Below are positions 5,530 through 6,845 of a stretch of 64,000 nt of DNA, piece after piece; the first letter of the stretch is position 1; every line of letters starts with the position of its first letter. The position numbers were made by a program, and so were the translations under genes. The DNA comes from Sphingomonas telluris. GTDB lineage: Bacteria > Pseudomonadota > Alphaproteobacteria > Sphingomonadales > Sphingomonadaceae. The stretch is taken from NCBI RefSeq assembly GCF_022568775.1, contig NZ_JAKZHW010000002.1, positions 199,501 through 263,500 of the forward strand. Reading direction: 5' to 3'. The notes under the pieces were generated by a model. The model made no database searches and had not been told where the DNA came from. It saw nothing but the letters and a program-made list of their open reading frames with translations.

Positions 5530-6813
5530 TCAGGCCTGCCGCTCGATGGCGCGTTCCTCGACGATCTCCAGCCCGTACCCCGCGAGCGCCACAGGCGACT
5601 GGTGCGTGTTCGTGAGCAAGATCATCTGGTGCACTCCGAGCGCGGCCAGGATCTGCGCACCGATACCGTAGCTTCGAAGCTCGTGCCCGCCTTCGGGCGG
5701 CTTGCCCGAGCGCAGATCGGCGGAGCGTGAGAGCGAACCCGGCGCAGCGGCGTGCAGCGCGACGATCAAGCCTGAACCCTGCTGCTCGATCATGTGCATG
5801 GCGCCCTGGAGCTGGCCCGAACGCGGGCCGGCCTCGCCGAGGACGTCGGCGAACAGGTCGAGGCTGTGCATGCGCACGAGCACCGGCTTGGTCGGGTCGA
5901 GCGCACCGTGGACGAGTGCGAGCTGCTCCTCGCCGGTCGCCTTGTCGCGGAAGACCTGCGCCTGCCACTCGGCGCCGCTCTTCGCCTTGAACGCGGTCGA
6001 GGCCGAGCGCTCGACCATGTGGTCCTTCTTCAGACGGTAGGCGATGAGATCGCGGATCGTGCCGATCTTGAGATTGTGCTGGCGCGCGAAGTCCATGAGG
6101 TCGTCGAGGCGCGCCATGGTGCCGTCGTCGCGCATGATCTCGCAGATCACGCCACTGCTGTTGAGACCGGCCAGACGGGAGATGTCGACCGCAGCCTCGG
6201 TGTGACCCGCACGGACCAGAACGCCGCCGGGACGCGCCACGAGCGGGAAGACGTGGCCTGGAGAGACGATCGAGTCCGCTCCATGCGAGGCGTCGATGGC
6301 GACGGCGATGGTTCGCGCGCGATCGGCAGCGCTGATGCCCGTCGAAATGCCCTCGCGTGCCTCGATGGAAACGGTGAAGGCGGTCTCGTTGCGGCTGCGG
6401 TTGTTGTTCACCATCGGCTGCAGGCCGAGCGCGTCGGCGCGTTCCTTCGTCAGCGCGAGGCAGATGAGGCCGCGGCCGTGGCGGGCCATGAAGTTGATCG
6501 TCTCCGGAGTCGCCATCTGCGCGGGAATGACGAGGTCGCCCTCGTTCTCGCGGTCTTCATCGTCGACGAGGATGAACATGCGGCCGTTGCGGGCCTCGTT
6601 GATGATCGCCTCGGCGCCGACCAGCACTTCGTTGTTGCCGCGCTGGATGAGCTTTTCCAGCCGCATCAGCGTATCGGCCGTGGGATTCCATTCCGTCGAG
6701 CCCAGCTTGCGCAGCGAATTGGGGTGAAGGCCGGCAGCGCGGGCCAAAGCGGCGCGACTGACCTCGCCGGTTTCGATGATGGCATTCAGCCGATCCATAA
6801 GATTCGTGCTCAT
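5530..6813 (-). CDS. ribB: HTH-RibB-RibX fusion: DHBP synthase with N-terminal helix-turn-helix and degenerate GTP cyclohydrolase II domain
   Basis: A 427-residue, three-part protein. Residues about 1-60 form a Cro/CI-like helix-turn-helix ([20 protein letters not shown], then a third helix ending RLEKLI). Residues about 65-270 are 3,4-dihydroxy-2-butanone-4-phosphate synthase, with the acidic metal loop [35 protein letters not shown] and GHTEAAVDI all intact. Residues about 280-427 resemble GTP cyclohydrolase II, but the three zinc Cys (CxxxxxxxxxxCxC in active RibA) are absent and the arginine/tyrosine active-site segment is replaced, so this is the RibBX architecture in which the tail cannot open GTP. 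A true ribA must be elsewhere. The ATG at 6813 is chosen; a GTG at 6831 also exists and no Shine-Dalgarno is visible for either. The HTH next to a palindrome suggests self-regulation (inference). Confidence 0.9.
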
Positions 6814-6825
6814 GGAGCGGGCATA

Positions 6826-6845
6826 TATCACACTCGAGTGTGATA
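6826..6845. promoter_or_regulatory. Perfect 20-bp palindrome (candidate operator) between ribE and ribBX
   Basis: TATCACACTCGAGTGTGATA is its own reverse complement over all 20 bases. It lies 12 bp upstream of the ribBX ATG, in the gap behind ribE. Neither side carries a T-run in the right direction for a terminator, so it looks like a homodimer operator. The fused HTH on RibBX is the obvious candidate ligand, but this is inference. Confidence 0.6.

Follow-up and report, generated by a model that had tools for sequence, protein, structure and literature searches.

The window analyzed here is a stretch of 64,000 nucleotides from Sphingomonas telluris (contig NZ_JAKZHW010000002.1, positions 199,501 to 263,500). 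It carries riboflavin genes on the minus strand, among them a gene for a RibBX protein that starts with a helix-turn-helix (HTH) and is preceded by a perfect palindrome (Table 1). The ATG at 6813 was taken as the start of ribBX because homologues align from there; an alternative GTG start at 6831 (433 aa) lies inside the palindrome. The DHBP synthase (RibB) domain is complete by Pfam (DHBP_synthase, E=3.5e-85), and GHTEA and one further RibB motif are invariant in 44 aligned sequences. The X domain matches GTP_cyclohydro2 with E=6.2e-33. RibBX has two Cys residues in all (118 and 224), with none after residue 224; because both fall in the RibB part, the zinc Cys of GTP cyclohydrolase II are missing, and the C-terminal domain is as a preliminary description of this DNA had it. 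A second PF00925 protein (213 bits, 362-aa frame) is encoded elsewhere in this genome at G000:C2:314640-315125 and is presumably the true RibA. Pfam found no riboflavin kinase domain in RibBX, the matches being PF00926, PF00925, a weak HTH_26, and a weak ComA. Judged by its sequence, the protein is a member of the RibBX family, with every tested feature present; the earlier statement that RibBX exists in proteobacteria is right.

Table 1. Features of the ribBX region, in window coordinates
Feature	Position	Strand	Remarks
ribH (lumazine synthase)	5103..5525	-	4 nt 3' of ribBX; presumed same transcript
ribBX, 427 aa: HTH, DHBP synthase (RibB), and GTP-cyclohydrolase-II-like X domain	5530..6813	-	ATG 6811-6813, stop TGA
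X domain, codons of residues 269-420	5554..6009	-	PF00925; without any Cys
DHBP synthase (RibB), residues 68-259	6037..6612	-	PF00926, full profile 1-191
Cro/C1-like HTH, codons of residues 1-60	6634..6813	-	predicted recognition segment about residues 30-36
Possible -10-like element TATATG, at operator edge	6822..6827	-	inferred; no sigma-70 consensus promoter called here
Operator candidate, perfect 20-bp palindrome TATCACACTCGAGTGTGATA	6826..6845		core TCACA-N6-TGTGA at 6828-6843
Terminator-like hairpin, 7 pairs then CCTTTTTATC	6852..6869	-	end of ribE, between ribE and operator
ribE (riboflavin synthase)	6868..7473	-	upstream of ribBX
ribD	7483..8454	-	start GTG 8454 by inspection; named from sequence, without profile

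The palindrome TATCACACTCGAGTGTGATA was found where it had been described, its end 12 bases 5' of the ribBX ATG. It occurs as a single copy in the window and in the genome with up to three mismatches allowed, and therefore no copy of the 20-mer lies before ribD or ribA in this genome. A 20-bp palindrome alone is not very rare in 64 kb, with at least one perfect example arising by chance in 12 of 60 Markov resamplings of the window; the significance of this one therefore lies in its position and conservation. The 16-bp core has one other exact match in the genome, inside a 259-aa frame, and with one mismatch it is no commoner than a control read backwards (11 sites versus 11). A sigma-70 promoter scan of 6700-6960 found none. 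No Rfam family reached the gathering score within the window, in agreement with the earlier remark that the gap behind ribE holds no FMN riboswitch. The window has a second perfect 20-bp palindrome, GATGTTTCACGTGAAACATC, at 51499-51518, which we take to be similar to parS, its flanking frames presumably being mnmE and mnmG; judging from this parS-like site, the window may be close to the region of chromosome partition.

The N-terminal helix-turn-helix and its distribution

The HTH that had been placed at about residues 1-60 is Cro/C1-like and is seen by Pfam below the cut-off: HTH_26 matches residues 8-52 with E=0.0059 and 17.3 bits when the whole protein is searched, and with E=0.0007 and 20.2 bits when the HTH is searched in isolation, versus a Pfam cut-off of 22. 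Among 66 HTH domains scanned at E<=0.1, HTH_26 was matched in 50 and HTH_3 in 45, the best HTH_3 match having an E-value of 3.7e-7. In a structure model, the HTH appears to resemble the DNA-bound P22 c2 repressor; a PDB sequence search with the HTH alignment alone returned matches at chance level (best E 0.11). The alignments A1 and A2 used here hold 44 and 66 sequences, respectively, from about 130 available HTH-bearing loci, with the row of locus L176 omitted from A2. The preliminary description had asked whether recognition-helix residues might be lacking; the opposite was found, in that ten residues (G28, L29, H30, N32, L34, R35, W42, N43, P44, and T48) are invariant in all 157 HTH domains of the family loci introduced below and the predicted recognition segment is the best-conserved stretch of the domain. 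There is no HTH in 36 family loci, as might be expected of a vestigial or structural add-on without DNA-binding function; however, the ten invariant residues and the retention of the operator together with the HTH make us regard this explanation as scarcely credible.

The HTH fused to RibB is confined to one family, which we take to be the Sphingomonadaceae in the broad sense, in the samples examined, and weak relatives of the HTH occur on other proteins elsewhere. HTH matches at E<=1e-4 were present in five of 385 genomes of the class sample, four of them within the family; in the order sample, 35 of 118 genomes had a match, 31 of them within the family. Twelve of 80 named contig loci carry the HTH, all under sphingomonad names; two named contigs are the same DNA as two of the family loci. 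When residues 1-66 were searched against a protein database, 2171 proteins matched at E<=0.001; all 120 among the matches listed carry a RibB domain, those with a name are named as enzyme only, and two organism names occur among them, both Sphingomicrobium.

In two genomes of a sister family (L290:188-1663 and L318:196-1680, both on the minus strand), CoaBC (phosphopantothenoylcysteine decarboxylase/ligase; Pfam run on the first locus only) begins with the same type of HTH. CoaBC is an FMN-using enzyme of CoA biosynthesis. A ubiB-like gene precedes both of these genes, no shared operator was recognised upstream of the two, and a database search with the first 70 residues of HTH-CoaBC gave two proteins. 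Another genome has a standalone 94-aa relative, a small HTH with the same DWNP signature, on the minus strand of L291; just before the start of its frame lies CGCATTAAAATGCG, by eye a perfect 14-bp palindrome, in which the CA-N6-TG spacing is as in the ribBX operator.

Co-occurrence of the operator with the helix-turn-helix

To compare upstream regions, we used 199 genomes of the family, of which 193 have a RibBX-like protein. The comparison covers 193 ribBX loci from 192 genomes, G161 being counted twice; weaker RibB matches present in many genomes, the six genomes with no match, and G176, whose match starts at a contig edge, lie outside this set. The HTH profile splits the loci without overlap into 157 with the HTH (at least 86 bits) and 36 without (at most 0 bits). 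The operator was scored on the 10 fixed bases of TCACA-N6-TGTGA over the stretch between 150 bp 5' and 20 bp 3' of the start, with windows of equal length from gene bodies, which are coding sequence, as the control. A site with at least eight of the ten bases was present at 157/157 HTH-bearing loci, 0/36 HTH-less loci, and 9/965 gene-body windows, the motif and the threshold of eight having come from a first look at most of the same loci. With at least nine bases, the respective numbers were 150/157, 0/36, and 2/965, and with all ten 118/157, 0/36, and 1/965; a threshold of seven did not discriminate (157/157, 7/36, and 124/965). The pairing of HTH and site at eight bases has a Fisher p of about 6e-40, uncorrected for relatedness.

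A further set of loci outside the first sample, made up of 14 of 30 loci and 20 hand-picked places that were chosen by the HTH with the upstream DNA unseen, had the site in 34/34 HTH-bearing loci, 31 with ten bases and three with nine; two of the 34 are identical to earlier loci over long stretches, and without them the count is 32/32. We also built a tree of the loci with FastTree from the RibB and X domains, leaving out the HTH columns. On this tree, the presence of the HTH changes at least 14 times (218 rows) and that of the operator at least 13 times (the 193 rows on which it was scored). Six of six well-supported independent pairs were concordant for HTH and operator (sign test, p=0.031), and there are 13 independent pairs once weak branches are allowed. 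Within G161, the HTH-bearing copy (L259) has the site and the HTH-less copy (L289) lacks it. The expectation that the palindrome stands before HTH-RibBX genes and only before them was thus borne out, both in the first sample at eight bases or more and in the later loci at nine or more, and the prediction that the HTH binds the palindrome as the putative operator of ribBX-ribH and controls these genes is well supported by comparison.

To assess specificity over whole genomes, we searched for the strict motif TCACAYYNNRRTGTGA and for the same motif read backwards, a control that addresses composition. The strict motif occurs in 111/199 family genomes and the backwards control in 0/199; among the matches listed, 69/75 strict-motif sites are no more than 130 bp 5' of ribBX. 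Matches to the looser core TCACA-N6-TGTGA were present in 144/199 genomes versus 28 for its backwards control, and the strict motif alone is the specific form. The strict motif appears to have, in effect, one address per genome, as would be expected for a local autoregulator. The fusion, the operator, their co-occurrence, and this genome-wide specificity can all be established from the sequences compared.

Off-target sites do not lead us to propose a wider regulon. Among 20 hand-picked off-target exact-core sites that were read with their surroundings, 15 fall within open frames 80 aa or longer (all except L294, L295, L297, L303, and L311), and no rib gene was recognised by eye among the frames that start within 150 bp of the 20 sites. 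At one of them, near position 1489 of L309 (G175), TCACA-N6-TGTGA lies 76 bp before a frame that by eye resembles a flavin reductase; this site also lies inside other frames, misfits the strict motif, and is a single case that may be due to chance, and we do not count it as a regulon member.

These comparisons bear on who binds the operator. The palindrome might be bound by an unlinked regulator, with another target or role for the HTH of RibBX. In favour of this, no covariation was seen between the recognition residues and the operator: in 24 tests (eight residue states by three operator features), the smallest p was 0.03, uncorrected, and because nothing went beyond this value, we make no claim of covariation. 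However, the operator tracks the HTH on the tree as well as in 193/193 loci, in G161 the site goes with the HTH-bearing copy, and the location of nearly all listed strict-motif sites before ribBX fits a local autoregulator better. We therefore judge binding by an unlinked regulator to be improbable.

Operator position and mode of control

The aligned operators have the consensus a-TCACATT-n-y-AATGTGA-ta, in which the inner and flanking positions are symmetric too: palindromic positions that were unused for finding the sites read T85% T83% ... A68% A76%, with flanking A58%/T73%. A site starts 20-33 nt 5' of the start codon in 116 of the 157 HTH-bearing loci, on which the spacing was analyzed; in the other 41, the sites are farther upstream or the start is differently placed. 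The gap between core and start is always 5-15 nt in the 116 loci, a range that stems largely from the selection, and equals 12 nt in 49 of them. A Shine-Dalgarno-like motif is found between site and start in 9/116 loci. The relatives' alignment has a weak TTG-rich -35-like signal just 5' of the core, with TTGACA matched at five or more of six bases in 14% and 12% of the 116 loci at the two best offsets, and TA directly 3' of the core; the -10-like signal in relatives is partly the operator itself. Tentatively, this arrangement points to an operator that fills the promoter spacer and to an mRNA almost without a leader. More than one site is present in 70/157 loci, and 51/78 site-to-site distances are 30-33 bp, or about three helical turns, a spacing like that of dimers binding in cooperative pairs; the locus in the window has one site.

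The gene upstream also differs between the two classes of ribBX. In HTH-less loci, ribE is immediately upstream in 33/39, with a median gap of 7 nt and many overlaps (measured to the first aligned residue), and these genes are probably read from an upstream promoter. For HTH-bearing genes, ribE is immediately upstream in 55/169 loci, with a gap of at least 33 nt and a median of 55.

We consider it highly likely, reasoning from these patterns, that RibBX is both an enzyme and the autorepressor of ribBX-ribH, a one-component regulator specific to its own pathway. A dimer of HTH-RibBX would bind TCACA-N6-TGTGA through the N-terminal Cro/C1-type HTH, and the occupied operator would overlap the likely core promoter and most probably repress ribBX-ribH; repression is favoured because a site 5-15 nt before the start codon, as in the 116 loci, shares bases with the start region or the likely core promoter. 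Where a second site lies about 30-33 bp upstream, as in many relatives, two dimers may sit side by side. A pathway-related ligand, held in the RibB site or in the X domain, could modulate DNA binding, and the ribBX mRNA would be near-leaderless.

Two other ways in which the site might act were weighed against autorepression. Activation from tandem sites of this kind is known for C proteins and other factors of the Cro/C1 type, and the distal sites of many relatives would suit a RibBX that activates its own promoter or switches between activation and repression with its ligand. However, binding as close to the start as in the 116 loci usually blocks transcription, and the window has a single site; we regard activation as unlikely, while granting it some weight. 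The direct position of the palindrome before the start codon would also suit an mRNA hairpin in translational control. Against this, the arms conserve primary sequence, including at the inner and outer positions not picked for the search, with no compensatory change; few loci have a Shine-Dalgarno-like motif 3' of the site; the short gap suggests that the palindrome may not be transcribed at all; and the window has no Rfam match. A role as an mRNA hairpin is, in our estimate, very improbable.

Relation to the FMN riboswitch and to other regulator enzymes

In most Proteobacteria surveyed, a lone ribB or ribH2 gene is usually controlled by an FMN riboswitch, the Alphaproteobacteria named in the available text of that survey being Caulobacterales, Rhodobacterales, and Rhizobiales (PMC3766115). 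In contrast to this RNA element, which was not found in 198 of the 199 family genomes, the arrangement described here involves a protein. With filters that are stricter and can lose weak matches, RF00050 was found in 1/199 family genomes versus 32/190 in the class sample; neither the window nor its genome has a match, the genome having been searched with the stricter filters as well. In this family, the HTH-operator arrangement takes the place that the FMN riboswitch has in other bacteria, other Alphaproteobacteria among them. The sole family genome in the sample with RF00050 is G164 (loci L232 and L246). Its operon has the order RFN-ribD-ribE-ribBA-ribH, its RibBA keeps the ECLTGD...CDCG cysteine motif, and it has neither an HTH-RibBX nor an exact operator core; in its genus, HTH-RibBX and the operator occur together in two other genomes, G008 and G102. 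On these features, G164 looks like a natural exchange between the two controls, and its riboswitch-led operon was possibly acquired horizontally. Apart from L246 and L289, each of the HTH-less loci (34 of 36; for example, L200, L210, L212, L215, L217, L220, and L228) belongs to a genome in which no riboswitch matched and the loci examined include no HTH-bearing copy; evidently, riboflavin synthesis is possible without HTH or riboswitch.

How riboflavin synthesis is controlled in this family, in which the FMN riboswitch is almost absent, found no answer in the searchable literature. The open-access literature likewise yielded no description of an HTH-bearing RibB or of a ribBX operator, in a search that leaves aside many papers behind subscription, the original ones on RibBX and RbkR among them. 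We speculate that the family replaced the riboswitch by a protein circuit in which a DHBP synthase senses a pathway ligand, with the RibB active site or the X domain as the sensor, and paired dimers on tandem operators turn off ribBX-ribH; the same HTH on CoaBC in two genomes may then be a small mobile module that makes regulators of cofactor enzymes. As a whole, we hold this scenario to be possible but somewhat doubtful.

Several known proteins invite comparison. In the model, the HTH appears to resemble those of Cro/C1-type repressors (P22 c2, 434, and the C proteins of restriction-modification systems), whose operators are short palindromes with a spacing of about one turn between the half-sites; it differs from them in being fused to a biosynthetic enzyme and in falling below the Pfam cut-off. 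NadR, PutA, and BirA, too, unite a DNA-binding domain with one that is an enzyme or resembles one, and NadR is an enzyme that acts as its own regulator. Similarly, BzdR combines a DNA-binding domain with a shikimate-kinase-like domain; however, according to the available text, the enzyme domain of BzdR has lost its activity (PMC3602430), whereas the RibB of the window protein appears complete by profile and motifs. The RibBX proteins of Shewanella, Aeromonas, Bradyrhizobium, and A. baumannii (6mnz) likewise consist of RibB and an X domain without the zinc Cys, are accompanied by a separate RibA, and are encoded in a rib cluster (PMC10012899, available text). The A. baumannii structure 6mnz aligns from residue 65 of the window protein onward only, and the RibB part of the Aeromonas protein comprises residues 1-207 (PMC10012899); accordingly, these two RibBX proteins lack the N-terminal HTH. 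In S. oneidensis RibBX, the X domain is reported to regulate RibB activity by an unknown mechanism, and the text available to us makes no mention of a DNA-related role of RibBX (PMC10012899).

A further parallel is the archaeal RbkR, which is likewise an enzyme of flavin metabolism with an N-terminal HTH and a bifunctional regulator and enzyme (PMC8305020, available text). RbkR differs in that it joins its HTH to a CTP-dependent riboflavin kinase and belongs to Archaea, while the window protein is a DHBP synthase. Judging from the sequence features described here, HTH-RibBX very probably works as an enzyme that is its own regulator, as reported for RbkR, and is a candidate trigger enzyme. If so, the X domain of RibBX, puzzling as it is, could find a function, and the protein would be a bacterial counterpart to the archaeal RbkR with a defined operator of 16-20 bp.
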